Part shown: piece after piece, positions 801 through 30,572 of the stretch
Layout: each line of letters starts with the position of its first letter
Numbering within the stretch: the first letter of the stretch is position 1
Assembly: GCA_019459525.1 (NCBI GenBank)
Contig: JAIBEY010000060.1
Location: 62,001 to 126,000, forward strand
Direction: 5' to 3'
Length of the DNA stretch: 64,000 nucleotides
Origin: Prolixibacteraceae bacterium
GTDB lineage: Bacteria > Bacteroidota > Bacteroidia > Bacteroidales > Prolixibacteraceae
Program-made: the position numbers and the translations under genes
The notes under the pieces: generated by a model
Told to the model about the DNA's origin: nothing
Database searches by the model: none
What the model saw: only the letters and a program-made list of their open reading frames with translations

Positions 801-3800
801 TTAGAAAGTTACGTTAACACCAAATGTAAATGTCCTGGTTGTCGGATATTTATCGCGTTCATCGTTACCCGGATCAAGACCCGTTTGTCTGACTTCAGGA
901 TCGATACCTTTATAACCGGTAAGTGTAACCAGATTCATGCCTGAAGCATAAATACGCAGGTTCTTGAAGGTATTCTTGTTGTTTAACTTCACGGTGTAAC
1001 CCAAGGTCGCATTATCGATTTTCCAGTAGTCACCATCTTCAACATAATAGCTTACAAATCGCTGAACATCTGTCAGAACGGCCTTCCCATAAACCTTGTC
1101 GTAGGCAGAATTTAAAGTATTGTAACCTATCGTTGGATTCTCGTAGAACATCCGGGAGAAATTCAGAATCTGGTATCCGAAAGCGCCACGCATGTTGATG
1201 CTGAGATCGAAGTTTTTATATTTAAAATTATTATTCCAACTGGCGTAATATTTAGGGATACCATTACCCAGAACCTGACGATCGTCGGTTGATGATTCAG
1301 TTGCAGGAATGCGGGTTCCATCGGGTTTTTCAATAATCCAGATACCATCATCGGTAATATCAACACTTCTCAATCCATAAAAATCGCCAATCGGACCACC
1401 AATTTTTATGCGGTGTGTCTCAATCTGAATGGGCTCGCCGGTATAACCCGCATAAAAGAAATCACTGGTTGTCTGGAATTTTTCGTTCGACAATGACACC
1501 AATTCGTTTTTATTGGTTGAAAACGTAAATCCGGCATTCCAGGTGAAATCGTTGGTTCTAACCGGAATTACATTAATCAAAGCTTCGAATCCCTGGTTTT
1601 TAATCTCGCCTACGTTTGCCATGATGGTACCATACAAATACGGAGGTGTTGGGACGCTGTAATTCCATAAAGCATCTTTAGTCAGACGGTTATAAAAATC
1701 GAGCGCACCACTTAACCGACCACCAAACAAATCAAAATCGAGCCCCAGGTTTATTTCTTCTTTTTTCTCCCATCTCAGTTCCGGGTTGTCGTTTCTTACC
1801 GGAACTAATTTGCGGACCCATTGTCCGTCGTAGAAAAAATAATCACTATAATCGAGACTACTCAATGAATTGTATGAGTTTGCCACATTAATTCCGGTGA
1901 TACCAAACCCTGCCCTTAGTTTCAGATTATCAATCCATGTGGCACTTTTCATGAATGGTTCTTCTGTAATACGCCATCCGGCAGAAACTCCAGGGAAATT
2001 TCCCCATTTATGCTCTTTCCCAAATTTAGATGAACCTTCGTGCCGCAAACTTGCCATCAGCAAGTACTTGTTATTGAAACTATAGCTGATACGCGAGAAG
2101 AATGCAACCAACTTGTCGGTGTCTTTTGTACTTCCCATGCCGGCTTCACCTTTTGGCAAACCACTTCCAATTTCCAGGTTATTGTAGGTGTAACCATCGG
2201 TTGGGAAATATTTGTTGTTTGCCCAGAAGCCTTCATTCATATTGTCCTCGTAATTGTAACCGGCCAATACCGAAAAATTATGATTCCCGATTGCCTTTTT
2301 ATAATTGGCTGTTAACTCGGTATAATTACCTACATAATCGCTTGTTCCGCGCGAGGCATAACCATCGGCACCATATTTAGTGGTGGAGACATGATTTTTG
2401 GTTTGATAAAAGCCACGAATATTGGAATCGCCCTTGCGGGTTACTAATCCTTTAATCGATAAATCCTGAATCGGGGTAAAAGTTAAACTGGCGTTGAAAC
2501 GAACATTCCGGTAGCGATTTTCGCCGATCGATTCTTCCAGGTAAGCTACAGGATTATCATAGAAGTACACATCGCGTTCGAACCATGTTCCATTGGTATT
2601 TTTTACCGGTTCGGTAGGATTGCGGATAATCGCCTGACGATAAACGTAGTTGTTAAAACTGTATCCGTCACCACCAGTCCAGAATTTCTGTTCGCTGATG
2701 ATGGTACCAATATTTGCTACCAGCTTGCCGCCGAACATGCTGTGATTGACATCAATACGTCCGGTATATTTCTCGTTGTCTGACTGCAGGAAAATCCCCT
2801 GGTTGTCTTTGTAGTTTAACGATGCCGTCAGATTGGTATTTTTACTTCCTCCCCTGAAAATTACGTTGTGAACCTGGCTAATCGCAGTACGGGTTATTTC
2901 ATCCAGCCAATCGGTATCTGAACCAAAATCTTTTAAATTGGCTCCTGTAAACGAATATCCCTGGCTCCATTTTTCGCGCAATTGCGAGGCATTCATAAAA
3001 TCGAGTTTACGACTAACCGAAGCACTCGAAAGATATCCGGAATATTCAATGGTTGGTGCCATTTCGTTACCACTGGTTTTAGTTGTAATAATAATCACAC
3101 CATTGGTTCCGCGAGTTCCGTAAATGGCCGAAGCCGAACCGTCTTTTAGCACGTCAATCGATTCAATATCTTCAGGAGCAACAGATTCCAGACTCCCCGG
3201 AACACCATCGACCAATACCAACGGATCGGAATTTCCAAGGATAGAAGAATTTCCCCGGAGCATTATTACAGCACCCTCTGTCGGATTTCCTGAAGGCATG
3301 GAAATGGTTAACCCTGCTACTTTTCCCTGAATAAGCTGGGCTGCATCTTTTACCGCCCCTTTTACAAAATTTTCTGATTTTACTGAGGCTACAGAACTGG
3401 TCACATCACCTTTCTTTACACTTCCGTAACCAATAGCAACCACTTCATCAATTCCAATCGATTCTTCTTCAAGTGTAATATTTATTGTTGCTTTATTTCC
3501 AACTGCTATTTCCTGGGTCTTCATACCCACAAAAGAAAATACCAAAACCGATCCCGGGCTTACATTCGGAAGACTAAATCTCCCTTCCTCATCGGTTATT
3601 ACTCCTGTATTTGTTCCTTTAACCTGAACCGTAACCCCCGGAAGGGGATCGTTTGACTGGCTAACCACCTTCCCTGTTATCCCGTTCTGCTGATTGGAAA
3701 GAGAGGCGTGATAGGACGATTTTTCGGACAAGGCAATCAGCCTGTTATTTATTTCATAATTAATTGCTGTAGATTTAAATAAACGATCCAGAATATCAGT

Positions 3801-4088
3801 AATGAGACCGTTTTCGACAGAGAGACTAACTTTCTGATTAACGTTAATCCGGGTGGCATCGTACATAAAATAGAACTCCGATTTTTCTTCAATCTGAAGC
3901 AGGGCATCTTTAATACCTACATTCTCTAATTTCAAACTCAGCCGTACATTTTGCGAGTATGTATTTCCCGCAAAAATTTGAGTTACAGCCACAAAAAAGA
4001 TAAATAGTGTTATTCTCATGGTCATAAATAATTTCGACTTCCATATTTTCGAGAAACAGGAAATCCAAGGAAAATGATTTTTTTTCAT
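801..4088 (-). CDS. SusC-like TonB-dependent outer-membrane transporter with STN signalling domain, unit 1
   Basis: Imports oligosaccharides across the outer membrane and signals through its N-terminus to FecR. 1095 aa. Order: signal sequence (hydrophobic core starts after Met22/Met24), STN domain about 45-115, carboxypeptidase-regulatory-like beta-sandwich about 135-215 (GKVVSQSNDPLPGVTV), TonB plug about 225-340 (LVLVDGVPG, DIESIDVLKDGSASAIYG), then a 22-strand-type barrel ending in Phe (FTFGVNVTF). The STN domain is the family's mark for sigma/anti-sigma trans-envelope signalling, matching the adjacent fecR and sigma genes. I keep the first ATG because the same MKK-extension occurs in the other three SusCs here. 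A predicted antisense RNA promoter overlaps this start codon. Confidence 0.96.
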   Translation of the reverse strand: MKKNHFPWISCFSKIWKSKLFMTMRITLFIFFVAVTQIFAGNTYSQNVRLSLKLENVGIKDALLQIEEKSEFYFMYDATRINVNQKVSLSVENGLITDILDRLFKSTAINYEINNRLIALSEKSSYHASLSNQQNGITGKVVSQSNDPLPGVTVQVKGTNTGVITDEEGRFSLPNVSPGSVLVFSFVGMKTQEIAVGNKATINITLEEESIGIDEVVAIGYGSVKKGDVTSSVASVKSENFVKGAVKDAAQLIQGKVAGLTISMPSGNPTEGAVIMLRGNSSILGNSDPLVLVDGVPGSLESVAPEDIESIDVLKDGSASAIYGTRGTNGVIIITTKTSGNEMAPTIEYSGYLSSASVSRKLDFMNASQLREKWSQGYSFTGANLKDFGSDTDWLDEITRTAISQVHNVIFRGGSKNTNLTASLNYKDNQGIFLQSDNEKYTGRIDVNHSMFGGKLVANIGTIISEQKFWTGGDGYSFNNYVYRQAIIRNPTEPVKNTNGTWFERDVYFYDNPVAYLEESIGENRYRNVRFNASLTFTPIQDLSIKGLVTRKGDSNIRGFYQTKNHVSTTKYGADGYASRGTSDYVGNYTELTANYKKAIGNHNFSVLAGYNYEDNMNEGFWANNKYFPTDGYTYNNLEIGSGLPKGEAGMGSTKDTDKLVAFFSRISYSFNNKYLLMASLRHEGSSKFGKEHKWGNFPGVSAGWRITEEPFMKSATWIDNLKLRAGFGITGINVANSYNSLSSLDYSDYFFYDGQWVRKLVPVRNDNPELRWEKKEEINLGLDFDLFGGRLSGALDFYNRLTKDALWNYSVPTPPYLYGTIMANVGEIKNQGFEALINVIPVRTNDFTWNAGFTFSTNKNELVSLSNEKFQTTSDFFYAGYTGEPIQIETHRIKIGGPIGDFYGLRSVDITDDGIWIIEKPDGTRIPATESSTDDRQVLGNGIPKYYASWNNNFKYKNFDLSINMRGAFGYQILNFSRMFYENPTIGYNTLNSAYDKVYGKAVLTDVQRFVSYYVEDGDYWKIDNATLGYTVKLNNKNTFKNLRIYASGMNLVTLTGYKGIDPEVRQTGLDPGNDERDKYPTTRTFTFGVNVTF

Positions 4089-4101
4089 AGATTTGTCTTG
4101 T

Positions 4102-4196
4102 TTATTATTACACTTTTCTAATTGTTGTGCTTTAGCGAGCTTAATGCAATGCGAAAAGAAAATTGAAAGGGGATGTTACCAGCATCTCCTTTTTTC
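4102..4196 (+). ncRNA. Predicted antisense RNA over the susC1 leader (DonS-like)
   Basis: Seen: on the plus strand TAGATTTG (4088-4095), a perfect TAnnTTTG -7 box, overlaps the susC1 start codon. About 70 nt further is a 10-bp hairpin with one G-T pair (arms 4166-4175 and 4183-4192, loop TTACCAG) running straight into six T's (4190-4195). Inference: an RNA of roughly 95 nt, complementary to the susC1 5' leader. No convincing -33 TTTG was found. The hairpin could instead act in the susC mRNA. The same layout recurs at the three other susC starts. Confidence 0.45.
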
Positions 4197-4245
4197 TTCC
4201 ACACCCTTTTTTCAGTTTCTCATAGGCAAATTGTTTGTTTTAGGG

Positions 4246-5259
4246 TTATTGTTTTGAAAGGATTACTTTTATGGAAGAATCAGTCTCCGCTGAATTACGA
4301 ACTATTGTTGCTTTCAGCGAACACGAAAACTCCATCGATTTTAATATTTTATCCAAAGGCTCATTGCTGATGCGGGCCGTAAATACCGAGTTATAAATCC
4401 GGGTATCGTTCACCTCAATATCAATATTATACCTACGTTGCAATGCGGCTATAACTCCGGTCATTGGTTCGTCTCTGAAAATCAGTACTCCTTCTTTCCA
4501 CGACGAGAATAACTCTGGCTGTACTTTATTAATTACTAAGCTTTTATTAACTGGATTGAATATGGCCACTTCGCCTGGCGACAGCCTGTAGTTAAACTTT
4601 TTATCGGAGGCCTGATTCAGTTCAACCCTGCCCGACTCCAATACGACCCGAATATCCTTTTCTCCGGGATAGGCACAAACATCGAATTTAGTTCCCAACA
4701 CCTTTATCTTCAGATTATTGACACCAACAATAAGCGGCAATTTTTTATCCCTTGCCGCATGAAAAAAGGCTTGTCCAACCAATTCTATTTCCCGGTTATT
4801 TACACCGAACTTGTTGTTGTAGGCAATTTTACTTCCTGAATTAATCCAGACTACTGAACTGTCAGGCAAAATCACCTTTGAAATCTGGCCTTTGTCGGCA
4901 ACAACGGTATGGATTAAACTTTTATCGCTACCAAACCATCCGGAATTTCCGGACCAATACATCAACAGGGAGGTAATTAATACTCCCAATAGGAATATGG
5001 CTGCATATTTATACAACTCATTAAACCTAATTCTCAGCGGCGATGACTGAGCTGAAACTTGCTGCCTGAAACGAAGATACATGTTATCAATCTCCGATTC
5101 TGACATTGGTTTGGTTGACGATAAAATAGCCCAGGTATTTTTAAGTTCGTGATACGCATGAAGAGCTTCTTTATCCTTCTCAATATCAGCAAGAATAGAC
5201 TGTTTCTCAGTCTCATTGTTGTCGCCGGTAACTAATCTCCAAATTTTATTAATGTCCAT
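4246..5259 (-). CDS. FecR-family anti-sigma factor, unit 1
   Basis: Inner-membrane anti-sigma factor that holds the ECF sigma factor until the SusC STN domain signals. 337 aa: cytoplasmic N-terminal sigma-binding region (1-85), one transmembrane helix about 90-108 (YAAIFLLGVLITSLLMYW), periplasmic FecR domain about 125-230 (LPDSSVVWINSGSKI, KVLGTKFDV) and a C-terminal DUF4974-like domain about 255-335. It lies between sigma and susC, 113 bp after the sigma stop. Confidence 0.95.
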   Translation of the reverse strand: MDINKIWRLVTGDNNETEKQSILADIEKDKEALHAYHELKNTWAILSSTKPMSESEIDNMYLRFRQQVSAQSSPLRIRFNELYKYAAIFLLGVLITSLLMYWSGNSGWFGSDKSLIHTVVADKGQISKVILPDSSVVWINSGSKIAYNNKFGVNNREIELVGQAFFHAARDKKLPLIVGVNNLKIKVLGTKFDVCAYPGEKDIRVVLESGRVELNQASDKKFNYRLSPGEVAIFNPVNKSLVINKVQPELFSSWKEGVLIFRDEPMTGVIAALQRRYNIDIEVNDTRIYNSVFTARISNEPLDKILKSMEFSCSLKATIVRNSAETDSSIKVILSKQ

Positions 5260-5372: not shown

Positions 5373-5963
5373 TCAGGAAACAAAAATAAACGCCACAAAC
5401 GGCAGATAGTCTTTAAGTGCCACCCTGAAAACTTTAAGTGCCTTGGTAATGTGCCCTTCAACTGCTTTAACCGAAATATTCAGTTCTTCGGCAATTTCTT
5501 TATTCTTTTTCTCCTCAAAACGGCTCAGATTAAAAACGGCACGGCATTGGGGAGATAACTGGTCCATGGTTCGTTCAATAATCTGTTCTATTTCCTCCAT
5601 GATCAACTGCGAAGTATTCAATGTCTCCAGTGCTCCAGTATTCATTTTTATTTCCAGCCTACTGGTATCCGAAGAGATAAAGATTTTCTCCTGAAACCTG
5701 CGATTACGCAGTTTGTATAAGCAGTTATTTTTGGCAACCGTAAACAGGTAAGCCCCCAAATTGGTGTTTCCGGCTAATTCCTTCTTCTTGTTCCACAAAA
5801 CCATTAAAGTCTCCTGAACAATATTTTCAGCAATATCTTTTTGGGGGATATATTCATAAACGAGGTAATACAAACGAGAAGCATACATTTTATAGATGAC
5901 TTCAAATGTGGACTCGTCCCCATTTTGCAATCTCTCTATCAGATGTTCGTTCTGTACAACCAT
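5373..5963 (-). CDS. ECF RNA polymerase sigma-70 factor, unit 1
   Basis: Directs RNA polymerase to the SusC/SusD promoter of its unit when released by FecR. 196 aa from ATG at 5963: sigma region 2 (NIVQETLMVLWNKK) and region 4 helix-turn-helix (KNKEIAEELNISVKAVEGHITKALKVFR). An ATG at 5996 would add 11 residues, but a -7 box (5985-5992) lies between the two ATGs, so the first would not be in the transcript; I prefer 5963. First gene of the unit. Confidence 0.93.
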   Translation of the reverse strand: MVVQNEHLIERLQNGDESTFEVIYKMYASRLYYLVYEYIPQKDIAENIVQETLMVLWNKKKELAGNTNLGAYLFTVAKNNCLYKLRNRRFQEKIFISSDTSRLEIKMNTGALETLNTSQLIMEEIEQIIERTMDQLSPQCRAVFNLSRFEEKKNKEIAEELNISVKAVEGHITKALKVFRVALKDYLPFVAFIFVS

Positions 5964-5984
5964 TCGGCGCTGATTTATGGGAGA

Positions 5985-5992
5985 CAAAACTA
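5985..5992 (-). promoter_or_regulatory. -7 box (TAGTTTTG) of ECF sigma gene, unit 1
   Basis: Perfect match to Bacteroidetes TAnnTTTG on the minus strand, about 20 nt before the ATG at 5963. No exact -33 TTTG at the right distance. It fixes the preferred start of the sigma gene. The rest of the 5964-6285 gap holds only the terminator at 6125-6154. Confidence 0.45.
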
Positions 5993-6124
5993 TCAAAAAT
6001 TGAATACATTCAGTTTAAAAAAAACGAAACAATTTCCAGGGTGCGATTCGGTTTATAATGATAAAATCCGGAAGATATGTAATGTTTCGAGGGGGGGTCT
6101 GTATCTTTTTCAACTATTTAAAAC

Positions 6125-10735: not shown

Positions 10736-13700
10736 TTAAAATTTAATATTTATACCCAGTGTATAAATACTTGCAACAGGATAAGAACTTATATCAACAC
10801 CTTGATATAAACCGTTTGAGCCATTATTCCCAACTTCCGGATTCATCCCATGATAATTGGTGAGCATAAAGGCATTCTGTGCGCTAAAATAGAGCCGTGC
10901 GCTTTTGATATAAGCGTTTGTTCGTATAGGCAAGGTATAACCTAATGTTATGTTTTTAACGGCAAGGTATGATCCATCAGATACCCATCTGGTATTGTTA
11001 TATCTAAACAATTCGGTGGTACCAGATCTGGTACGTGGAATATTTCCTTTCCCAGGATTCTCCAGAGATCTCCATCTTTCAGCAACTTCTTTTGTTACAT
11101 TGAAAACACCATCAATATTCTCTGTTGACTCTAGCATGCCATCAATAATATCACCGCCCACAGCTCCGGCAATAACAACGCTTGCATCAAAATTCTTGTA
11201 ATAGAATTCGTTGGTCAGTCCGTAAAGGAAATCAGGATTGGGATCCCCGATAATAGTTCTATCCTTCATGTCAATTATTCCATCAGGAACTCCGTCAGGA
11301 CCGCTAATATCTTTCATTCTGGCAGTTCCGACCATTGAAGAAGCATGTTTGGGCTGTGAGTCAAGCTCTGCTTGAGTCATATAAACTCCGTCAAAAATAT
11401 AACCCATAAATTGTCCTAACGGCTGGCCTACCTGAGTTCTATTATAATCGCCCTGGTTGTTGTTTCCTCCGATAGGTGTATTGTTTGTCCCGAGTTTTAT
11501 CGCTTCGTTTCGGTTAAAAGTGATATTAAAATTAGTGTTCCATCTAAATTTCCCAACATAATTCTTCGTTTCTAATCCAAACTCATGTCCCCAGAATTTG
11601 AACTCTCCAATATTTGATTGAATACTCGAAAATCCGGTTTGCAGTGGAATGTCAATCGAATACAACAACCCATCTGTTCTTTTCCGGTAATAATCGTAGA
11701 TAAAGAAGATACGATCTTTAAATAAGCCTATATCAAGTCCAAGATCGTATTGCGCGGTTGTTTCCCATGTTAAGTCGTTATTCCCGATGGCATTAAGTGC
11801 TTTCCCTGATGTAATAGCACCATTAGTTACATAATTTTTAGTATCGAGGGATGCGATATAGCTATAATTACCAATATTATTATTTCCAACTTTACCATAA
11901 CTTCCCCTGACTTTCAAATAGCTAAGCTCATCTATGTTTTGCATAAAACTTTCCTCTGAAGCAATCCAACCTACAGAAACCGATGGGAAATTTCCCCATT
12001 TGGCATTGGATCCAAAACGAGAACAACCATCCCTACGAAAAGCCATTGATAGTAAATACTTTCCATCATAATTGTAGTTCAATCGTCCGATATAAGATAG
12101 CATTGACCATTCTGATTTACCTCCGGAGCCAGTTTTTACTGTTGCTACATTAAACCAGTTAACTGCATCATCAGGAAATTTTGAAGCACTTATTGAGGTG
12201 GATTCGTCACTTGTTTTTTGCGAAGTATATCCAACCAAAGCATCAAAATTATGCTTCTCCTTGTATGTTTTTGTGTAAGTTAATGTGTTTTCAACCAACC
12301 AGGTCATATAATTTCCAGTTCCATAACTGCCTGTCGCTGGTTGAGGTGGTGCCGAAAACATTCCTCCCTGAACCGATGACGGTGTAAACGATTCAGATAC
12401 TCTGTTCCCAAGATCTACATTGGCACTGAGTTTGTATTTCAATCCGTCAATCAATTCAACTTCAGTAAAAGCATTAACAATAGCACTCGTTTGTTTGGTT
12501 GGATTCTCTCTCCGCATCAACACCAAATAATAGTTTGAGTTTGCAAACATTCCCGGTGGATAAAACGAAATCGGGTAAGTGCCGTCGTCATTTTTATACT
12601 TTAGGGCCGGATCCATCAAAAAAGATGAATGGATTATGTTTCGTCCATTACCTAAACCAGGCGTTATTTGGCTGTTGCGATATGATCCGGCCAAATTCAA
12701 ACCAAAGGTTATTTTTTCCGATGCTTCAAATAAATTATTCGATCTCGCAGTAAATCTTTCGGCATAAGTATTTAATATAACACCTTCCTGCTTGTTGTAA
12801 TTGAGGTTGACTGAAGATTTAAATTTGGTTGTCCCTGTTGAAAGGGAAAGGTTATAATTTTGTGTCGCCGCATTTCGTAGCAGAATATCATACCAATTGG
12901 TGCCTTCTTTCACTTGCTCCGGATTTTGGTATTGAGCAGGTACTCCCCCTGTATAACCTTCGTATTGAGCCTTATCTTCGTAATACTCTTTTTTGAATTG
13001 AGCAAATTCCCTGGCATTCATTACATCCGGTTTGCCTCGATCTTGTACTCTTTCTGTACCATAATAGGCACTAAATTCAATATTGGTCACACCTGATTTT
13101 CCGGTTTTGGTATTGACAAGAATAACTCCATTCGCGGCGCGTGAACCATACAATGATGTAGCCGATGCATCCTTTAAAATAGATATTGATTCAATTTCAT
13201 CAGGACTCAATGTCTCTATACCACTTATCGAAGGAAATCCATCGATTACCACCAAGGGGCTGTTACCAGCGTTTATTGAAGCTTGTCCCCTGATACGGTA
13301 AGATAACCCACCGTTTGGTTCACCTGATGTTTGATAGATTTGTACACCTGCAAATTTGCCTTGCATTTTCTGGCCGATATTCGAAACTGGCAGATCCGCC
13401 AGTTCGTCTGTATTAATCTGGCTCATTGCACCTGTTACGTTCCTTTTTTTCTGAGTACCGTAACCAATCGCTACAACTTCCTCAATACCAATAGCATCTT
13501 CTGAAAGTGTCACGTTAACAGTTGTCTGATTTCCTACCTTTACTTCCTGCATTTTCATCCCTACAAAAGAAAATTGCAGAATTCCATTTTCCGGAATATT
13601 TGAAAGCGAATAAGCACCATCGGCATCTGTAATTGAACCATTGGTCGTTCCTTTCACCAAAACCGAAACCCCTGGAAGCGGACTTCCCGATGTATCGGAA

Positions 13701-14125
13701 ACCTTTCCGGTTACTTTTTTTGATGGCTGTTGGTTTTCCATCAAAAGAGCACTTTTTACACTCTCATCAGTGATGATAATGTACCGATCAACAATCTGGT
13801 ATTGAAAATTTGCTGATCCAATTATCCTATCCAAAATCGCATCAATTGACTGGTTATCTACCTTTATTGAAATTTTCTTCTCTACATCCAACTTGGTGCT
13901 GTTGTAGGCAAATTTAAATTCCGACAGCGATTCTATTTGCTTAAAAACACTCTCGATCGTTGCATTCTTCGACTCAAAAGTCAACCTGGTTGCCTGAGAG
14001 TAACTCACTGATGCAAAAGACATCAGGCCCAGTAAGATAAAAATAAAGGTTAGTTTCATAATGCGTAAATACTTTCGTATCGGGATAAATGATTCCCAAC
14101 ACAAACATGGTCTGTTTTTTTTCAT
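10736..14125 (-). CDS. SusC-like TonB-dependent transporter with STN domain, unit 2
   Basis: Outer-membrane importer and signal transducer of unit 2. 1129 aa: MKKN extension, signal core after Met23 (KLTFIFILLGLMSFASVSYS), STN domain about 47-120, carboxypeptidase-regulatory-like domain about 138-215, plug about 225-345 (LVVIDGFPSISG, DEIESISILKDASATSLYGSR) and barrel ending in Phe. Paired with SusD2 and downstream of its own sigma/FecR. The rhamnosidase in the same unit suggests a rhamnose-containing ligand (inference). Confidence 0.96.
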   Translation of the reverse strand: MKKNRPCLCWESFIPIRKYLRIMKLTFIFILLGLMSFASVSYSQATRLTFESKNATIESVFKQIESLSEFKFAYNSTKLDVEKKISIKVDNQSIDAILDRIIGSANFQYQIVDRYIIITDESVKSALLMENQQPSKKVTGKVSDTSGSPLPGVSVLVKGTTNGSITDADGAYSLSNIPENGILQFSFVGMKMQEVKVGNQTTVNVTLSEDAIGIEEVVAIGYGTQKKRNVTGAMSQINTDELADLPVSNIGQKMQGKFAGVQIYQTSGEPNGGLSYRIRGQASINAGNSPLVVIDGFPSISGIETLSPDEIESISILKDASATSLYGSRAANGVILVNTKTGKSGVTNIEFSAYYGTERVQDRGKPDVMNAREFAQFKKEYYEDKAQYEGYTGGVPAQYQNPEQVKEGTNWYDILLRNAATQNYNLSLSTGTTKFKSSVNLNYNKQEGVILNTYAERFTARSNNLFEASEKITFGLNLAGSYRNSQITPGLGNGRNIIHSSFLMDPALKYKNDDGTYPISFYPPGMFANSNYYLVLMRRENPTKQTSAIVNAFTEVELIDGLKYKLSANVDLGNRVSESFTPSSVQGGMFSAPPQPATGSYGTGNYMTWLVENTLTYTKTYKEKHNFDALVGYTSQKTSDESTSISASKFPDDAVNWFNVATVKTGSGGKSEWSMLSYIGRLNYNYDGKYLLSMAFRRDGCSRFGSNAKWGNFPSVSVGWIASEESFMQNIDELSYLKVRGSYGKVGNNNIGNYSYIASLDTKNYVTNGAITSGKALNAIGNNDLTWETTAQYDLGLDIGLFKDRIFFIYDYYRKRTDGLLYSIDIPLQTGFSSIQSNIGEFKFWGHEFGLETKNYVGKFRWNTNFNITFNRNEAIKLGTNNTPIGGNNNQGDYNRTQVGQPLGQFMGYIFDGVYMTQAELDSQPKHASSMVGTARMKDISGPDGVPDGIIDMKDRTIIGDPNPDFLYGLTNEFYYKNFDASVVIAGAVGGDIIDGMLESTENIDGVFNVTKEVAERWRSLENPGKGNIPRTRSGTTELFRYNNTRWVSDGSYLAVKNITLGYTLPIRTNAYIKSARLYFSAQNAFMLTNYHGMNPEVGNNGSNGLYQGVDISSYPVASIYTLGINIKF

Positions 14126-14138
14126 AAATTTGTTGCGT

Positions 14139-14211
14139 TAAGTGTTAAACTATGGTTTGACATGTGAAAGAGCGGTAATTCTTCGACCAATTATCGCTCT
14201 TTATTTTTTTT
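14139..14211 (+). ncRNA. Predicted antisense RNA over the susC2 leader (DonS-like)
   Basis: Seen on the plus strand: TAAATTTG (14125-14132) across the susC2 start codon; an 8-bp hairpin with one G-T pair (14143-14150 with 14155-14162, loop TATG); then a 14-bp hairpin with one G-T pair (14167-14180 with 14189-14202), followed by TTATTTTTTTT to 14211. That is a -7 box, two stem-loops and a T8 tail within about 85 nt. Inference: antisense RNA of about 72 nt against the susC2 leader. This is the clearest terminator of the four. Confidence 0.48.
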
Positions 14212-14218
14212 GCATAAA

Positions 14219-15229
14219 TTAGCGTTTAGGGGTTAATATAATTTTTCCTTTTTCGTATCTGTAATTAACCGACAGGGTCAGGCTGACCACTTCCATCAGA
14301 CGCTCAAGCCGTTCATCTTCATACAGTTCTACGGTAAGCCTACGGTCATAAAATTGTTTTTCATCGTAAATAACTTCCACATCGTACCAACGCTCCAGCT
14401 TCCGAACCAGATTACCGAAAGTATCATCTTTAAAAATAAGCCGGTTATTTTTCCATCCATCTATTTCGTCTTGAGGAAAACGATTTGCAGCCAATTGATG
14501 ATTCTTTTTTGAGTAAGCAAATGATTGCCCGGGTTTTACTTCCTTCACAACCGGTTGTTTACACGATAAATTATTAAGGATCAGGTTTACTTTACCTTCA
14601 AACAACGAGGTTTCTATCTGATTTTCATCGGCATAAGCTTTGACATTAAATTTGGTTCCCAGCACTTTCACATCCACTCCGGAAGTATGCACCACGAACG
14701 GCTGGCGTGCATTTGTGGCAACCTCGAAAAAAGCTTCACCGTCGAGGTAAACATCGCGTTGACCTTTACTGAAGTTACCCGGATATTTAATTTTGGTAGC
14801 TGAATTCAACCACACTTTGGTACCATCGGCCAATATAATTTGTGACTTCTGTCCTCGCGGGGCAATCGTTTCGGTATATTGATCGGTCGATTGGTTTAAC
14901 TGGCTTACCCCATATAAAATTCCAAGCCCAACAAGAGGAATCAGGAGAAACGCGGCCACTTTTTGGTAAACAGTCAAAATCCGCCTGAACGAAAACCCCG
15001 ATTGCAGGTGGTGTTCGTTTTGGTACTCCTGAATTTGTTTAAATACCGTTTCGATCAGTGTATTTGAGTCGATTTCCGGAGATAAGGTCCAATGCTCCGA
15101 CAACCATTTTTCGACCTCAAAATGTGTTGCGGGATTAGAAAGCCAGCTTTTGAAAGCAGTTAGTTCCTGAATGCTGCAATCCTGTTCAGCCAAAAACCGG
15201 TTGGCAATATCGATGATCTTTTCTGGCAT
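14219..15229 (-). CDS. FecR-family anti-sigma factor, unit 2
   Basis: 336 aa. N-terminal cytoplasmic region (1-85), one transmembrane helix about 92-112 (VAAFLLIPLVGLGILYGV), FecR domain about 125-230 (LADGTKVWLNSATKIKYPG, KVLGTKFNVKAY), DUF4974-like C-terminus (FKDDTFGNLVRKLERWYDVEV). Regulates the sigma factor encoded 173 bp upstream and receives the signal from SusC2. Confidence 0.95.
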   Translation of the reverse strand: MPEKIIDIANRFLAEQDCSIQELTAFKSWLSNPATHFEVEKWLSEHWTLSPEIDSNTLIETVFKQIQEYQNEHHLQSGFSFRRILTVYQKVAAFLLIPLVGLGILYGVSQLNQSTDQYTETIAPRGQKSQIILADGTKVWLNSATKIKYPGNFSKGQRDVYLDGEAFFEVATNARQPFVVHTSGVDVKVLGTKFNVKAYADENQIETSLFEGKVNLILNNLSCKQPVVKEVKPGQSFAYSKKNHQLAANRFPQDEIDGWKNNRLIFKDDTFGNLVRKLERWYDVEVIYDEKQFYDRRLTVELYEDERLERLMEVVSLTLSVNYRYEKGKIILTPKR

Positions 15230-15402: not shown

Positions 15403-15978
15403 CTACGAGAAATATAAAAATGCCAACACAATAAATTTCCTGAATTCTTTACGGAGAAATGCCAGCGCATTACGAATCTGACTATCGACAGTATTTTCGG
15501 ATATATTCAGCCGTTCGGCTATTTGCTTGTAGCTTAACCCTTCAAAACGGCTTAAACGAAAAATTTCCCTGCGGCGCTCCGGAATTTCGTCAATGAGTCT
15601 CTGCAATTTTTCTTCAGCGTCTTCCTGTAGCATATTTTCCTGCCCTTCGTCAATCAATAAATCCTGCTGAAAATGTTCGCCAACAAAATATAGTTTTCGG
15701 TTTACAGCCGATTTCAGATGATCGAGCACCAAATGTTTGGCGATGGAGAAAAGATAGGATTGAAAATCCTTTCCGGGATCAACCGCTTCTTTTTTTAGCC
15801 ATAGCTTTACAAAAACTTCCTGAACAATTTCTTCGGGATCGACCTGAGCAGGAACTATTTTAACAGCAAAGCCCTTTACCTTATTCCGATATTTGTAAAA
15901 CAAAACTTCAAAGGCAAACGAGTCGCCTTCTTTGAGCTTCTTTACCAGTTCCTTTTCAGTATGCAGGAGTTTTTCCAA
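15403..15978 (-). CDS. ECF RNA polymerase sigma-70 factor, unit 2
   Basis: 191 aa. Region 2 (DPEEIVQEVFVKLWLKKE) and region 4 (RFEGLSYKQIAERLNISENTVDSQIRNALAFLRKEF) are intact. Partner of FecR2. A one-mismatch -7 box (TTACTTTG, 16015-16022) lies 36 nt upstream of the ATG on the minus strand. Confidence 0.94.
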   Translation of the reverse strand: MEKLLHTEKELVKKLKEGDSFAFEVLFYKYRNKVKGFAVKIVPAQVDPEEIVQEVFVKLWLKKEAVDPGKDFQSYLFSIAKHLVLDHLKSAVNRKLYFVGEHFQQDLLIDEGQENMLQEDAEEKLQRLIDEIPERRREIFRLSRFEGLSYKQIAERLNISENTVDSQIRNALAFLRKEFRKFIVLAFLYFS

Positions 15979-18027: not shown

Positions 18028-21000
18028 TTAGAATTTAATGTCAAGACCGAAAGTAAATGATTTCATCAAAGGATAGGAGTCATAGCAATCCTGCTCAGGA
18101 TCATGAAATTCTGTCATTGCAGATAATACAAATAGATTAGTCCCATTAAAAAATACCTGAGCCGAGGAAATATTAAGAGGCAAAATCCAGCTTTTTGGGA
18201 TAGCGTACCCAATATTGAGGTTTTTCAAGCGCAAATAGGCTCCGTTCCGAATCCAGAAAGACTGGTTTCCGGTTCCTGATTCGTACCAGCTTTTGCCAAT
18301 TACGCGAGGATATTTGGCATCGGGATTTTCGGGAGTCCAAACATCACCGGTCCAGATTGGATAGTAGGGCCTTACGGTGCCTCCATACTGGCGGATACCA
18401 CCCATTCCTTCGCTGTAACCACCAAGGTTACTGATCATCCGATCGTACAGGCCTACGCCCTGAAAGTGCATGTCCAATGTAATTCCTTTCCATGTCAGGC
18501 TTGTTCCAAACCCATAGTTAATCCGGGGCGAAGCATTATCTGATAAAACCTGGATATCGTTACCATCAATTTTACCATCGGGGCCCGGGGCATATCCATC
18601 GCCACGAACGTCTTCAAAATAAAGGCCTCCTAAATACGGGTCGCGGCCATATTGTTTGAAACCTTTAGCCAGCAGGGCATCCAATTGTTCCTGGGTACGA
18701 ATAATTCCCAATGTTTTTAGTCCGGTCAAACGGTTGAGCGATTTTCCAATGGCAGAAAATTCTTCCAGGTTTCCGCCTGCCGAATACAGCGCTGTCTGAT
18801 CCAATACATCCCACTGGTCTTTTGAATAACCGATATTCCCATAAACAGAATAATCCAACTGGCCACCAAAAGCTTTATCCCTCCACATGGCATTAAACTC
18901 AAGTCCCCGCCATGACCGTTCAGCATAATTTTCAGGAGCCAAATCTTGTCCATAGGTATCAGGAATGGTAACAATACGCGACCCCAAAATGTCTTTCTCC
19001 GTTTTATAGAAAGCATCAAACGAACCTGACAAACGGTTATTCAACACACCAAAATCGAACCCTACATTGTAGGTTGTTGAGGTTGCCCACGTCAGATACG
19101 GATTCGGGGTTGCTCCCGGAGTAATTCCAAGATTCAGGTTATCGCCCCAGATGTAGGAACTGCCCGACTGATATACGTTCATGTATGAAAATGGGGTAAT
19201 CTCATTATTATTTACATCCAAATCGTTCCCTGTTGTTCCATACGATGCCCTGATTTTCAAATTATCCAGCCATCCGGAAAAGTCTTCCATGAAAGATTCG
19301 TTACTAATGCGCCATGCCCCGGAAACAGAAGGAAAAAATCCCCATCTTTTTTCCTGTGGGAAAAGTGTATTTCCATCGTACCGGAAAGAAAATTCAGCAA
19401 TGTATTTTTGGGCATAACTGTAATTTAAACGGCCGATCCACGATAAACGGCCACCGGTAACCTCCGATGCATCGCCCCATCTCTTTTCGGCATCGGTTGA
19501 ATACACAAACATTTGATCATAGTTGGTCAAAGGGCTTTCTCCTTTTGCATAAATAAGCTCGCCACCGTTTGACTGTTGCTCCCAAACAGCAGTCGCGGCA
19601 ATATCGTGTTTACCAAACGAATTCGCATAGTTTAAGAACCAGTTTAGCTGTTCGCTCCACAATGAATTGATGTTGTAACTCAAAAATTCCTGATTCTGCG
19701 AGAATGTGAATGTGTTCATTTTATTTGGATCGGGCGCTGCCGGGATAAACCGATTATCATCGGCGTTGGCGGCCGCCCAAACATAATTGTGTTGATAGGT
19801 CAGATATTTTTTCCGCATGTAATCGTTGCCAATGTAGTTGCCAACAATTTTAGTCGTCAGACCCGGGACAAAGGCGCCCAAATCAATATCAAAAGAGAGA
19901 ATCGCGTTAACTTCCCGTTTTCGTGTTTTAATGTACCTATCGCCAATTACCTGATCGACCACATTCCAGGCCTGCCAGCTACCCATTGGAGTTTGCACCG
20001 GATAATCGGTTACATTATTTGCAGGCGTTCCATCAGCATTCAGATAAAACGGGTAGGTTTTCGGCCAGTTAAATGTACAACGGTAAAGGTCGCCAATGGT
20101 CTGCTCGTCGTCGTCAGAGAATGGCCAGTAAAATCGTTGTTGATTCTGTTGGTTAGCCGACAGATTAAAATTCATTTTTATCCGGTCGGTAATTTTGGCG
20201 GTCACGTTCGACCGTAAGTTAAACTTGTCGTTTTCAAGATTTTTATACGACCCAGTTTCACCAATATAGCTACCTAAGGCATAATAAGTTACTTTATCAT
20301 TCCCTCCTGAAACACTAATCGAATGCTTCTGGGTAGAAGGGGTTTGCCAGATGTAGTCGTTTACATTGTAATTTTTGTCCTTGAAGTAGGCAAACTCTTT
20401 GTCGCCGTTTGGGGTAGCCAGGCCCTGAAATTGAGCGACCCTGTTCTGGTAGATCAATTCGTCGGTTGCCGTAAACATATCCGAAAAAAGTTCTTGTATG
20501 GGTTCCATAAACGTGTATGACCCTTGATAGTTAAATACGGGTTTCTGTTCAGTTCCAGCTTTGGTGGTAACCAAAACAACACCATTTCCAGCCTGCGAAC
20601 CATAAATGGAAGCTGTAGCCGCATCTTTCAGAAAACTCAACTGGTCAATTTCGTTTACTTCGAGTGCATCGAAGGCACCCTTATCCCTGACAATACCATC
20701 AATTACGAATAAAGGTTCACCAAAACCACCGCGGATACGGATCTCGGAAGAGGCTCCCATTAATCCTGAATTCCCGGTTATATTAACACCCGGGGCACGT
20801 CCGGCAAGCGTATTCGACAAATTTGAAGTAGAAATTGTACTCAATTCGGAAGCGTTAACCGCAGTAATGGAACCGGTTAAATTGACTTTCTTTTGAGTTC
20901 CATACCCAACAGCCACAACTTCTTCAAGGCCAATAGTTTCGTCTTCAAGCGTGGCATTAATGGTGGTTTGGGTACCAACCGTTGTTTCTTTAATTTTCAT

Positions 21001-21564
21001 TCCAACAAATGAAAACTGCAAAGTTGCACGTTCGGGTACGCTGCTAATTGAATAGTTACCGTCAGAATCGGTGACAGTTCCTTGCGAAGTGCCCTTTATT
21101 AAAACAGAAACCCCGGGTAGTGGCGCCCCTGAAGTATCAGTAACTTTACCGGAAACCGACTTTTGCTGCTGATTAAGTCCGGTGACTGATTGTTTCCCGA
21201 TATGGGGAGTAATTATTATTAAATTATCAGGTAACACTTTGTACAAAACACCCTGATTCCGAAACAATTCATCCAGAATGGTTTCTACGTTTCTTTCGGT
21301 CACCTTCAAATCAATTTTTCGGGTAACATCAACTTGTTCACGCTGATAAAAGAATCGGAAATTACTTTTATCCTCAATTTCTTTCAGCACATCAAGAACC
21401 TGTTTGTTCTGGATATTAAAAGAAAATTTTGTTGTCTGCGAATAAACGGAGGCCGAAACCTGCATCAGACAACCCATCAAAATAATAAATGTAAGCTTCA
21501 TCTTTAGCACTAGCTTATGCCCCTTGCCCGGATACCGGGCGGAAACAATTTGTTTTTTTTTCAT
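18028..21564 (-). CDS. SusC-like TonB-dependent transporter with STN domain, unit 3
   Basis: 1178 aa, the largest SusC here. MKKK extension, signal core after Met22 (KLTFIILMGCLMQVSASVYS), STN domain about 45-120, carboxypeptidase-regulatory-like domain about 140-215, plug about 225-335 (LFVIDGIVRDKG, LSFLKDAATASIYGSQAGNG), barrel ending in LDIKF. Plug residues differ strongly from units 1, 2 and 4, so this is not a recent copy. Confidence 0.96.
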   Translation of the reverse strand: MKKKQIVSARYPGKGHKLVLKMKLTFIILMGCLMQVSASVYSQTTKFSFNIQNKQVLDVLKEIEDKSNFRFFYQREQVDVTRKIDLKVTERNVETILDELFRNQGVLYKVLPDNLIIITPHIGKQSVTGLNQQQKSVSGKVTDTSGAPLPGVSVLIKGTSQGTVTDSDGNYSISSVPERATLQFSFVGMKIKETTVGTQTTINATLEDETIGLEEVVAVGYGTQKKVNLTGSITAVNASELSTISTSNLSNTLAGRAPGVNITGNSGLMGASSEIRIRGGFGEPLFVIDGIVRDKGAFDALEVNEIDQLSFLKDAATASIYGSQAGNGVVLVTTKAGTEQKPVFNYQGSYTFMEPIQELFSDMFTATDELIYQNRVAQFQGLATPNGDKEFAYFKDKNYNVNDYIWQTPSTQKHSISVSGGNDKVTYYALGSYIGETGSYKNLENDKFNLRSNVTAKITDRIKMNFNLSANQQNQQRFYWPFSDDDEQTIGDLYRCTFNWPKTYPFYLNADGTPANNVTDYPVQTPMGSWQAWNVVDQVIGDRYIKTRKREVNAILSFDIDLGAFVPGLTTKIVGNYIGNDYMRKKYLTYQHNYVWAAANADDNRFIPAAPDPNKMNTFTFSQNQEFLSYNINSLWSEQLNWFLNYANSFGKHDIAATAVWEQQSNGGELIYAKGESPLTNYDQMFVYSTDAEKRWGDASEVTGGRLSWIGRLNYSYAQKYIAEFSFRYDGNTLFPQEKRWGFFPSVSGAWRISNESFMEDFSGWLDNLKIRASYGTTGNDLDVNNNEITPFSYMNVYQSGSSYIWGDNLNLGITPGATPNPYLTWATSTTYNVGFDFGVLNNRLSGSFDAFYKTEKDILGSRIVTIPDTYGQDLAPENYAERSWRGLEFNAMWRDKAFGGQLDYSVYGNIGYSKDQWDVLDQTALYSAGGNLEEFSAIGKSLNRLTGLKTLGIIRTQEQLDALLAKGFKQYGRDPYLGGLYFEDVRGDGYAPGPDGKIDGNDIQVLSDNASPRINYGFGTSLTWKGITLDMHFQGVGLYDRMISNLGGYSEGMGGIRQYGGTVRPYYPIWTGDVWTPENPDAKYPRVIGKSWYESGTGNQSFWIRNGAYLRLKNLNIGYAIPKSWILPLNISSAQVFFNGTNLFVLSAMTEFHDPEQDCYDSYPLMKSFTFGLDIKF

Positions 21565-21577
21565 ACATTTGACGTGT

Positions 21578-21661
21578 TTGATTAATAATTAATTTGGTGT
21601 GACAGCACCGTTTTATTAATTGCATTGAGCCGGCTAGATGTGACAGCATCTCCGGCTTTTT
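21578..21661 (+). ncRNA. Predicted antisense RNA over the susC3 leader (DonS-like)
   Basis: Seen on the plus strand: TACATTTG (21564-21571) across the susC3 start codon; a hairpin GGTG-TGACAG-CACC (21596-21609); a second hairpin with the same TGACAG loop (21628-21657: 6 bp, 2-nt bulge, 5 bp), ending in five T's (21657-21661). Inference: antisense RNA of about 85 nt. The repeated loop sequence is unexplained and could be a protein or RNA recognition site. Confidence 0.45.
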
Positions 21662-21698
21662 CATTTCGATTGGGTTTATTTCATAGAAATCCTCTCTT

Positions 21699-22691
21699 CT
21701 ATTTCTTTTGAATAACTATTTTTTGATCAACTATCTGATACTGAATAGGCAATGTATGTTTTAGTATTTCCAGGACTTCCAGTATCGTTTCATCTTTTAT
21801 TGTTCCGTCATAGTGATACCCCAGAATGCTTTGATCGGCAATTTCGATCTCGATACCATATTTTCGCTCAAGCAAAATGGTCAGGTCTTTCAAGCTCATG
21901 TTAACAAAAACCAATTTATTATTCTTCCACGATGAGTACCATTTCGTATTAACCTCATGAATCTGAATCTTATTTAACTCTTTGTTATAAGTCAACTGCT
22001 CTCCGGGTTTTAATACAATTTCATCAGCCAGCTTCAGGTTTTCCGACGATTTTACTGCGATACGCCCTTCCTCCAGCGTGGTCGTCACCTCAGCTTCTTC
22101 AGGATATGCTTTTATATTAAAAGAAGTACCAATAACCTGGACATCATAAAACGAAGTGTGAACCAGAAATGGTTTTTCCTTCATCTTTGCCACTTCAAAC
22201 CAAGCTTCCCCGGTCAGAAAAATCTCCCGCATGTGGTCGTTACCGTCAACGGTATATTTTATTTCCGATCCTGAATTCAAAAAAATGTGAGTGCCATCGG
22301 GTAAAAGCATTTCGGAAACAGATCCTTTGGGCGCCACCGAAGTGTAATAAACCGGAGATGATTCCTTTTTGACTGAACTGAGGTAATAACCCAGGAATAA
22401 ACCGATAATCAAAATGGCAGCCCATTGCCCAAACCGAACTGAAATTTGCCTGGTAGGATAATAACTTTTTACATCGATTTTTCTTTTGCTCCATAGTTTC
22501 TCAAATATGGCATCAAAAAACTGTTTGTTTTTTAATGGATTATCGGTTCGGTTTAAATCCTCAAGCAGATTCTCCTTCAATTTAAATTCGACATTTGATT
22601 GGTGGAACAATGACAAGAACTCCTGCCTTTGCTCGTTGGTCGGGTGATTTGATTTTGCGTCCTGAAGAAAGTCTTGAATGGGCCTGTCCAT
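21699..22691 (-). CDS. FecR-family anti-sigma factor, unit 3
   Basis: 330 aa. Cytoplasmic N-terminus (1-85), transmembrane helix about 90-106 (WAAILIIGLFLGYYLS), FecR domain about 122-225 (LLPDGTHIFLNSGSEIKY, VIGTSFNIKAYP), DUF4974-like C-terminus (MSLKDLTILLERKYGIEIEI). Lies 233 bp after the sigma stop and 134 bp before susC3. Confidence 0.95.
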   Translation of the reverse strand: MDRPIQDFLQDAKSNHPTNEQRQEFLSLFHQSNVEFKLKENLLEDLNRTDNPLKNKQFFDAIFEKLWSKRKIDVKSYYPTRQISVRFGQWAAILIIGLFLGYYLSSVKKESSPVYYTSVAPKGSVSEMLLPDGTHIFLNSGSEIKYTVDGNDHMREIFLTGEAWFEVAKMKEKPFLVHTSFYDVQVIGTSFNIKAYPEEAEVTTTLEEGRIAVKSSENLKLADEIVLKPGEQLTYNKELNKIQIHEVNTKWYSSWKNNKLVFVNMSLKDLTILLERKYGIEIEIADQSILGYHYDGTIKDETILEVLEILKHTLPIQYQIVDQKIVIQKK

Positions 22692-23515: not shown

Positions 23516-23537
23516 AAGTGAACCATGATGGTTCACG

Positions 23538-27020: not shown

Positions 27021-30000
27021 CTAGAAAATAAGTTTCAGATTAAACCCAAGATAACGAAGTGACGGATCGCTAAAGTTTTCGCTACCACCATCCGGATCGG
27101 AATACTTAAACTGTTTGGCCCAGAGGAACACATTTTGTCCAACAGCAGAAATAGAAGCTCCCTTGGAGTAGAATTTAGTGCATATGCTTTTAGGCAAATC
27201 GTAAGTAAACGACATCTCCCTGATTTTAAAATATGTGGTGCTGTAGGCATCAACAATAGATGGTGCACCACCCCAGGCTGTTCCTTTGTGCAAATTTTCC
27301 AGATACGTTTTATAGGTCACCGCTACATCGTTTGGTGCATAAACTCTGGTATCGCTGGTAATATTTCCATAAGTATCGTAGGTTGCAGAACCCGATACGA
27401 CTTTCACCCCACTCCCGACGTAATTCTTTGTTCCTGGCTGTGTAGCATCCAGATATCTCTCCGGAACAACTGATTTCGGGTGCGAACCTGCACGCCACAT
27501 ATACATTTCGGTAGTGGTTTGAGCCAATCCGCCTACGCGGCCATCAAGCGAAACATAAAATGACCAGTTTTTATACTTAACGGTTGTATTTGCACCCCAG
27601 ATCCAATTTGGATCGGCATTGCCAAATTTAGAGTCGTAAGCCGAATACAGTGGCTGACCGTTATTATGGATAATGTTGCCGTCAGGATCACGCTGATAAT
27701 CACGAAGGATATAGTGGTCGGCCCTTTCGCCTACCTTTACCCAAGGCTTATCGGCTGAATAAACCGGATCTAATTTGGTATAATACCTGGCATACGTTGA
27801 CCAGTTGAGCGAAAGATCCCATTGCCAGTCATTTGTTTTGATCGGAGTTACATTGGCTGAAACTTCAACTCCTTTTCGGGTAATTTCCTCGTCAATATTG
27901 ATATAATTGTTGTAATATCCTGAAGCAGGACTTATTCCTGTTGATTTCAGGAAGTCGTACATTCTTTTGTTGTAATAGGATACATCAACAGAAGCCCTGT
28001 TTTTATAAAGGTTTACTGCGGTACCAATCTCGAAGGTAGAGGCTGACTCCGGATGAACATCGACGCCATAAATAGTACCAGGCAACGATGCCGAACTTAA
28101 ACTTCCCCAGGCGTTATTGGTAATGGTATAAACCTGATTGATGCTATAGACTCCGGCAGGAGTTTTCGAAGAAGTCCACGAGGCACGCAATTTCCACATC
28201 GAAAGCCAGTCCATTTTAGGAAGTAATTCAGACGCGACAAAACTTCCTGACAAAGATGGATATAGATACGAACGGGTCGATTCGGGCAAAGTAGAACTCC
28301 AGTCGTTGCGTAAAGTTCCCTCAGCATACACCAGACTTTTCCACGAGAAAGCAAGGCGTCCGTACAGACTGTTCACTTGCTGTTTAGTTAAGCTGGAAGC
28401 CACATAGGCCGGAGTTACCGAAGCTTTAAGTGAGTAGAAAGCCGGAATAGAAAGTCCACCTTGCGTTCTTGAATCAATGCCTTCATCCTCGCGGTAATAA
28501 ATCGTTCCACCAACAAAACCATCTACGTTGAAATCTCCGATTGATTTGTTCCCCGAAAGCAGGAAATCGGTATTGAGGCTGTAACCCCGGCCAATTCCCA
28601 TGTTGTACGATCCTTTCATCGATTCACCCCAAACCTGACCGCCATTGTCGATTATGGTAGCAGTACCTGCACTTACAAATGAACCTTTAGAAATCTGGAT
28701 CTCCTGTTTGTTGCTATAGGAGTCAAAACCGGTACGGAAAGTAGCTTTAAGCCAGGAGGTCATGTCATAATTCAATGCCAGTGTGCCATTTAAAACATCT
28801 TTATTTATACTGTGTGTCCTTTCGTACCTGTCGAAATAGGGATTGTTGTTGGTACCTGTATAACTGCTGTTCTGAATTTCGTTTGGTACTACCCAGTAAT
28901 CTTTATAGTCGCGGATGTCCCAATCAGGACCCGACCAGATTAACATGGAATACATGGGGTCGTATCCGGTATAACCACCAAAACCTATGTTTGGGGAAAT
29001 TTGCTTGTTAAACGACAGATTTGACGACAACGTGAACTTGTTCACTTTCATATCACCGCCAATGCTGTAAGTAATTTTGTCGAACATTGAATTGGGATAC
29101 TGCCCCTTATTTTTCACCCAGGTTACCGAAGAGCGGAAGCTCCCGAATTCACCTTGCTGAACTACGTTAACGTTGTTATTTAAAACATACCCCTGTTCCA
29201 GAAAATTCTGAAAATTATCTTTTCCTATAGGCAGGTAAGGCATCGCCTTCATGGTTTTTTTTATCGGATCCCATTGAATAACTTCCTGTCCTTCCAAAGG
29301 AGGCCCCCAGGGACCATCTCCTGAACGGACATAGGTATTGGTTGCCGTGTTCACAACACGTCCGTAAGTTGATTGCAATTCAGGAATAGCCAGATAACCA
29401 GCAGTCAACATGGTTCCGCTGTTAACTGAAACCGACAGGCCCTTGTTCTTATTCCCCTTTATTGTTGTAACCATTATTGCTCCACTCGCCCCGCGATAAC
29501 CATAAAGGGCTGATGCGGTTGCACCTTTCAGCACACTGATATCCTCAATATCGTCTGACGGTAAATCACGCAGGCTCATATTGCCATAAGGTACTCCGTC
29601 GATTACCAAAAGTGGTTTTTCACCACGAAGCAAAATGTCTGGTTCTGCCGCAAATTCGGTACTGTTTTTCACCATCAAACCTGCAACTTTTCCGGTTAAT
29701 GAGGTACTCAAATCAAGTCCTTTAACCGTTTGCAAACCCTCTCCGGAAACTTTCTGTACGGCATAACCCAGCGCTTTTTCCATTCGTTTGATTCCGAGAG
29801 CTGTAACAACAACTTCATCAACGCCAAAAGTCTCTTCCTCCATCACAATATTGATCGAGCTTTTACCCTCAACGGAGATGTCCTGTGTTTTCATTCCAAC
29901 AAATGTGAATTGCAGAATCGCATTTGTAGCAACAGCTGGAAGTGAATAGTTTCCATTCCCATCAGTGATTGTTCCATTGGTTGTACCCTTTATCACTACC

Positions 30001-30446: not shown

Positions 30447-30459
30447 AGATTTGAATGAT

Positions 30460-30532
30460 TAAATTTAATAACGTTATTTGATCTGCCCGTTAAGGGTAAC
30501 CCGAGAGGAGGTGTTGGTAGCACTTCCTCTCT
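30460..30532 (+). ncRNA. Possible antisense RNA over the susC4 leader
   Basis: Seen on the plus strand: TAGATTTG (30446-30453) across the susC4 start codon and an 11-bp hairpin with one G-T pair (30503-30513 with 30521-30531, loop TTGGTAG). There is no T-run after the hairpin, so termination is less certain than at the other three junctions. A perfect palindrome AATAACGTTATT lies within the region. Inference by analogy with the other three. Confidence 0.3.
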
Positions 30533-30572
30533 TCGTTATAAGAGATTTATAATGTCATAGGCAATCTGGTTT

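Follow-up and report, generated by a model that had tools for sequence, protein, structure and literature searches.

Candidate DonS-type antisense RNAs with predicted promoters over the start codons of FecR-linked susC genes in a Prolixibacteraceae bacterium

What does the shared sequence around the start codons of four neighbouring susC genes do, and on which strand is it read? The question is raised by the 64,000-nt stretch of DNA analysed here (the window), in which four PULs lie on the minus strand, each with the gene order ECF sigma factor, FecR anti-sigma factor and susC. At all four susC starts, the plus strand carries a T-tract, CA and TAnnTTTG, whose first T faces the A of the ATG, and at each a hairpin with a T-run stands farther along in the fecR-susC gap. 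The preliminary description had placed such a box over the susC1 ATG, ahead of a hairpin and T6, and had claimed the same arrangement for all four genes; both observations hold, as the following features illustrate (predicted RNA ends are set at the terminator plus 6 nt).

801..4088, minus strand: susC1, with CarboxypepD_reg-like, Plug and TonB barrel domains and an STN match below the curated cut-off
4078..4085, plus strand: T8 tract opposite susC1 codons 2-4, at -15 to -22 of the putative antisense promoter
4088..4095, plus strand: TAGATTTG, putative -7 element of antisense promoter 1, over the susC1 ATG, its first T pairing with the A of the ATG at 4088
4100..4198, plus strand: predicted antisense RNA 1, ~97-99 nt, start G4100, with the box at -12..-5, a purine at +1 and a terminator
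4166..4195, plus strand: intrinsic terminator of RNA 1, a 12-pair hairpin (4166-4192) with T6 (4190-4195)
4246..5259, minus strand: fecR anti-sigma gene upstream of susC1, with FecR and FecR_C domains
5373..5996, minus strand: ECF sigma factor gene of PUL 1 (domain match)
10736..14125, minus strand: susC2
14125..14132, plus strand: TAAATTTG, putative -7 element over the susC2 ATG
14137..14208, plus strand: predicted antisense RNA 2, ~72 nt, start G14137
14167..14211, plus strand: terminator of RNA 2, a hairpin (14167-14202), then a T-run
14219..15229, minus strand: fecR upstream of susC2 (domain match)
18028..21564, minus strand: susC3
21564..21571, plus strand: TACATTTG, putative -7 element over the susC3 ATG
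21576..21664, plus strand: predicted antisense RNA 3, ~89 nt, start G21576
21627..21664, plus strand: terminator of RNA 3, a hairpin (21627-21658), then a T-run
21699..22691, minus strand: fecR upstream of susC3 (domain match)
27021..30446, minus strand: susC4
30446..30453, plus strand: TAGATTTG, putative -7 element over the susC4 ATG
30458..30535, plus strand: predicted antisense RNA 4, ~78 nt, start A30458
30505..30535, plus strand: terminator of RNA 4, a hairpin (30505-30529) with a weak T-run
30573..31550, minus strand: fecR upstream of susC4 (domain match)
15403-15978, 22925-23536 and 31640-32218: ECF sigma factor genes of PULs 2-4 (domain matches)

The T-run is strong at the first two susC genes, moderate at susC3 and weak (TCTTCG) at susC4, and Rfam covariance models gave no match at gathering score within the window. 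The best reading of these features is that they specify DonS-type cis-antisense RNAs of ~70-120 nt, which would be transcribed from housekeeping-type promoters lying within the susC start.

The genome contains 90 Plug matches; the upstream regions of 80 were fetched first, the other nine genes were read later, and two genes cut by contig ends (L018 and L019) were left out of the class counts, leaving 78. Start codons were picked by a script that preferred Lys-rich ATGs, and genes starting at least ~500 nt before the Plug match formed class I ('long' or 'STN-length', n = 34), the others class II (n = 44), the STN domain itself having been tested for in susC1 only, where it fell below the cut-off. 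CAAAnnT stands directly before the ATG in 29 of the 34 long genes and in 1 of the 44 other TonB-receptor genes, while elsewhere in class I leaders CAAAnnTA occupies 3 of 4828 positions; the box at susC starts exceeds chance. Within the class I start context, C, A, A, A and T hardly vary and more variation is seen at the two middle positions, a profile that fits TAnnTTTG rather than a general A-rich leader. Genome-wide, the pattern CAAANNTATGAAAAAA has 31 matches (reversed pattern 0, permuted pattern 1), 30 of them at SusC-type starts and 29 in the fetched receptor set. One match, cut by a contig end (L322), appears by eye to be a further susC of this type, preceded by a FecR-like frame, and together with the 31 members it brings the family to about 32 in this genome, where the preliminary description had counted four. 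Antisense terminators of -10 kcal/mol or below accompany 29/34 long genes and 2/44 others, sense-oriented ones of the same strength 0/34 and 5/44, and dinucleotide-shuffled member leaders yielded an antisense terminator in 11 of 150 cases; the filter overlooks hairpins with a gap before the T-run. Box and terminator co-occur (p = 6e-18). Because the members are paralogues, part of this conservation could be descent.

The arrangement is, moreover, tied to FecR. With a profile made from the four FecR proteins of the window, FecR was located directly upstream of 35 of the 78 receptor genes. By script, 29 of these 35 have the exact box and a terminator, one the box only, one the terminator only and four neither. 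By eye, L032, the box-only gene, does have a hairpin, with AC before the T-run, which the filter overlooked, and the terminator-only gene (L055) differs by one mismatch, T for C in the box; with both counted, the pair is present at 31/35 FecR-linked genes. Among receptor genes without FecR, the box occurs in 0/43 and the terminator in 1/43, and the nine remaining Plug genes have no box (0/9), no FecR by the same profile (0/9) and a single antisense terminator (1/9), at a gene (L314) that also has a sense terminator. One FecR-linked gene (L044, G000:C9:63661-66632) is below STN length, yet has the box, the terminator and the N-terminal extension described below; the antisense RNA thus seems to follow FecR, not receptor length.

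In the available text of PMC6847099 and PMC9723704, TAnnTTTG sits at -12 to -5 in F. johnsoniae and F. psychrophilum. With this spacing, +1 falls 12 nt upstream of the susC ATG, and the likeliest start of RNA 1 is 4100, where about 4102 had been proposed; the window bases at the expected +1 are G4100, G14137, G21576 and A30458. On the antisense strand, this position holds a purine in 24/30 members and in 15/48 other genes (p = 5e-5). Codons 2-4 supply a run of As whose antisense reading is a T-tract spanning -15 to -22, in agreement with the AT-rich element that F. johnsoniae promoters are reported to have, centred on -18 (PMC6847099). Compared with the sigma-ABfr/sigma-A promoters of Bacteroidota as described in the same two sources, the candidates are alike in the -7 element, in being AT-rich near -18 and in that a -33 element is not evident (TTG at the expected distance in 2/30 members and 7/48 others, no enrichment). 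They differ in tolerating G at antisense -10, found in 12/34 long genes and given as 'virtually zero' in F. johnsoniae promoters (PMC6847099), and in that the element doubles as start-codon context. The Bacteroides promoter consensus is reported to have Y after TTTG (PMC12632263); here Y follows in 13/30 members and is not enriched. At the RNase P RNA promoter, the intended positive control, TTTG stands just before the RNA and the box, CATCTTTG, is one base off. An ECF -35-like AAC in the sense hairpin loop (15/30) was dropped as a candidate, having no conserved -10 motif downstream.

A short antisense RNA is quite probably made from the box promoter and ended by the terminator. Across the members, its predicted length is 69-122 nt (median 79; 13/30 at 69-76 nt), covering the susC leader from -12 to an end between about -80 and -133. 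The start codon would be covered by the promoter and not by the RNA, which would begin upstream of the ATG. The box, its spacing, the initiator, the orientation of the terminator, the FecR linkage and the conservation are properties of the DNA, from which we infer the making of the RNA, the repression and its route. At most ECF sigma/FecR-linked susC genes, an opposite-strand housekeeping-type promoter, its -7 TAnnTTTG built over the start codon, would send the RNA away from susC through the fecR-susC gap, as far as an intrinsic terminator close to the stop codon of fecR. Running through this gap, the RNA would be complementary to the leader of the susC mRNA at its own locus, acting in cis. 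Targeting in trans was considered and rejected, as the RNA pairs with its own leader far more strongly than with others: mean pairing energies were -145.8 kcal/mol for the cognate leader and -31.1 kcal/mol for non-cognate leaders, the strongest non-cognate value being -64.9 kcal/mol. On balance, we lean towards repression of susC by the RNA; most likely it would lower basal receptor expression while the glycan signal is absent, through leader pairing, through transcriptional interference by RNA polymerase firing over the start codon, or both, and it would be overridden by strong ECF-driven sense transcription once the ECF sigma factor is released. Since a sense terminator between fecR and susC was found at none of the 34 long genes, it may be speculated that the RNA also blunts read-through from the sigma-fecR operon.

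Within the member hairpins, 55 of 364 pairs are G.U on the antisense strand, and that strand, on which the hairpins were chosen, folds more stably than the sense strand in 28/30. An alignment of 12 rows (susC1 and ten like loci from among the 30 most like susC1, plus one paralogue), selected for similar layout, pairs in 120/120 cells with 3/10 pairs changed on both sides, and its covariation score was reached by 2/500 shuffles, a control that ignores relatedness. The YUNR loop motif is present in 14/30 member loops. Selection on the RNA end is suggested by the compensatory changes and wobble pairs, which count against the alternative that survives best, namely that the RNA is made without itself being regulatory, and that transcription from the embedded promoter matters (by interference) or is neutral. 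We consider this unlikely, though a serious contender; it takes a share of the probability granted above to the RNA being made. In its favour, both positive and negative correlations are reported for antisense/PUL pairs (PMC10994844), and DonS of B. fragilis is stated to repress its PUL 'through an unknown mechanism' (PMC11697453), so that the repression 'by covering the leader' invoked in the preliminary description is not established. Termination alone could also explain the compensatory changes, but the coupling to FecR modules argues against neutrality.

The next alternative takes the shared CAAATnTATGAAAAAA to be a sense translation-initiation context of highly made receptors, with no antisense promoter at all. 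A-rich starts are reported to aid initiation in Bacteroidetes (PMC6847099), and where codons 2-3 of the long genes encode Lys, they use AAA without exception (62 AAA, 0 AAG). However, within its own genome the context is confined to FecR-linked genes, and it is a poor one by the rules given in PMC6847099, with T at -3 in 23/34 genes and A at -12 in 4/30 members versus 28/44 class II genes, so translation does not explain it. The antisense-oriented hairpin would likewise be left unexplained, as would three Bacteroides loci in which the box is off the first ATG yet beside a terminator. In L190 and L279, it lies a few codons inside the gene, counting from the first ATG (the annotated start in L190), and the antisense terminator adjoins; in L275, it lies 61 nt before the first ATG, and the antisense terminator is present. 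From background density, a chance box is expected in such a window at about 1 locus in 8, and L190 and L279, which look alike, may be one event. We regard the translation context as improbable. That the antisense -7 box accounts for the shared start context, as initially proposed, is supported, and it appears to give a better account than translation would: the invariant bases coincide with the -7 element, nn vary, and in this genome the box is linked to FecR and the terminator.

It is also conceivable, though highly improbable, that the terminator merely halts long antisense transcripts coming from susC and thereby shields fecR, no short RNA arising from the box; the terminator alone would suffice for this and possibly spurious antisense transcription is described as common (PMC7366714), but the fixed place of the box, the purine at +1 and the co-occurrence of box and terminator speak against it. 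Least credible of all is a sense (or bidirectional) terminator of the sigma-fecR operon with an incidental box, which fits the position of the hairpin shortly after the fecR stop codon but neither the terminator orientation (sense 0/34, antisense 29/34 long genes) nor the G.U pairs on the antisense strand.

If an antisense promoter is indeed built over the start codon, its upstream half must lie in the coding stretch of an N-terminal extension. Members mostly have such an extension of ~20 codons before the signal peptide (e.g. window 4020-4088), diverged in sequence and near-fixed in length. The hydrophobic core of the signal peptide begins at residue 18 or beyond in 28/31 members (median 21; the other three at 11, 17 and 17), and an in-frame Met falls at 21-24 in 30/31. 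In the four FecR-linked non-members, the core never begins that late (0/4; one starts at 17 and another lacks a core), and among the 38 genes with a core but no FecR it does so in 5. Among the named loci from other genomes considered below, for which the ATG with a box was preferred as the start in this analysis and in naming carriers, the median core position is 22 in those with box and terminator (6/21 at 16 or less) and 7 in those with neither (8/44 at 18 or more). The extension may house the antisense promoter; it could also reflect shared descent.

The preliminary description held that homologous loci without box and hairpin would speak against it; at the DNA level, many related loci keep both. 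Relatives were scored for [CT]AAAnnT at any of the first four ATGs, with the terminator window set by the first ATG. The close relatives were the 30 loci most like susC1 (genus and family) less the window's own L081 and L086, giving 28; L086, outside the 28, has box and terminator, L160, L213 and L220 were left out of the relatives counts, and L171-L180 were outside the analysis. Box and terminator occur together in 26/28 close relatives, none of which lacks both, hence there is no contrast (p = 1). In other families of the order (eight genomes), 15/29 loci have both, five the terminator only and nine neither, and the 78 usable named loci comprise 21 with both, 47 with neither, five with just the box and five with just the terminator (p = 5e-10). 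The permuted control box was found in 0/28 close relatives, 1/29 loci of the order and 6/78 named loci, compared with 26 named loci with the real box. Named carriers include Bacteroides faecis, B. xylanisolvens, Pedobacter caeni, Dyadobacter, B. finegoldii and P. distasonis. Within B. faecis, 40 of 108 Plug matches were sampled (12 long, 28 shorter): five of the 12 long genes have a terminator, all five with a box nearby and three of these exactly at the ATG, and seven have no terminator, whereas the shorter genes have a terminator in 4/28 and a box in 1/28, never together. In other genomes of the phylum, CAAANNTATGAAAAAA occurs 0-6 times per genome, at least once in 68/247 versus 45/247 for the permuted control; it is thus no phylum-wide marker, though box plus terminator recurs in other families. 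A tentative extrapolation, which we hold possible without favouring it, is that Bacteroidales and several other Bacteroidota have an ECF sigma-FecR-SusC module with a built-in fourth part, a housekeeping antisense promoter at the start codon with a terminator at the fecR end, and that the N-terminal extension at least partly makes room for the promoter.

PUL-associated antisense RNAs are known from B. thetaiotaomicron, where RNA-seq is reported to have revealed 10 (PMC7366714) and later 32 (PMC10994844), some confirmed by northern blot. Both these and the RNAs predicted here are antisense to susC homologues and similar in number per genome (~32 here); theirs are sequenced transcripts and ours are predictions. 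According to PMC7366714, PMC9723704 and PMC11697453, as far as their available text goes, DonS family RNAs measure 78-128 nt and are divergently encoded and antisense at the susC homologue of a PUL. The window RNAs are likewise short, divergent and opposite a PUL susC homologue, with a predicted 3' end of their own and predicted member lengths partly (13/30) just under 78 nt; as for a housekeeping-type promoter, the -7 element and initiator are present and the -33 TTG is found in 2/30. In Bacteroides and Parabacteroides, too, a like layout of box and terminator is found beside susC genes linked to FecR. Unlike DonS, the RNAs described here belong to another organism and are predicted from sequence; the members found in this genome have the box at the ATG, its position varying in B. 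faecis. A literature search, which mostly fell short of full texts and had the DonS study of Cao et al. 2016 outside it, returned no published statement that the antisense promoter is placed at the start codon. A DNA rule requiring CAAAnnT directly ahead of a FecR-linked susC ATG, together with an opposite-strand hairpin and T-run, could predict PUL-silencing antisense RNAs in many Bacteroidota, replacing species-by-species RNA-seq. One and the same sequence would be start-codon context on one strand and probably promoter on the other, and the mechanism of DonS-type repression becomes testable by small, well-placed changes.

Ten of 149 matching records from a plasmid collection were also read. 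Bacteroidales loci with annotated FecR have the terminator in 5/5 cases and the box at the ATG in 4/5; Spirosoma and Persicobacter (Cytophagales), with FecR annotated, have neither, and three loci without annotated FecR are without the pair. Over its first 262 residues, susC1 is 38.5% identical to B. finegoldii, the top-ranked match among the best 40 of the 149, and all 149 records are below 60% identity. Plasmid-labelled records of this collection (e.g. NZ_OY725958.1; Bacteroides finegoldii, Parabacteroides distasonis, Phocaeicola massiliensis) carry PUL genes and give the impression of being chromosomal pieces.

The hairpin apex in several members (e.g. 4166-4192) is TGTTGnnGCA or close to it, also in other families, and may be a conserved loop or a protein site. 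Finally, one genome-wide match to CAAANNTATGAAAAAA (L321, G000:C71:62300-64000) is at a 31-codon ORF other than susC, with a CAAAnnTATGAAAAAA box and an antisense terminator in the same hairpin arrangement; this might be a locus that has decayed or an antisense RNA standing on its own.
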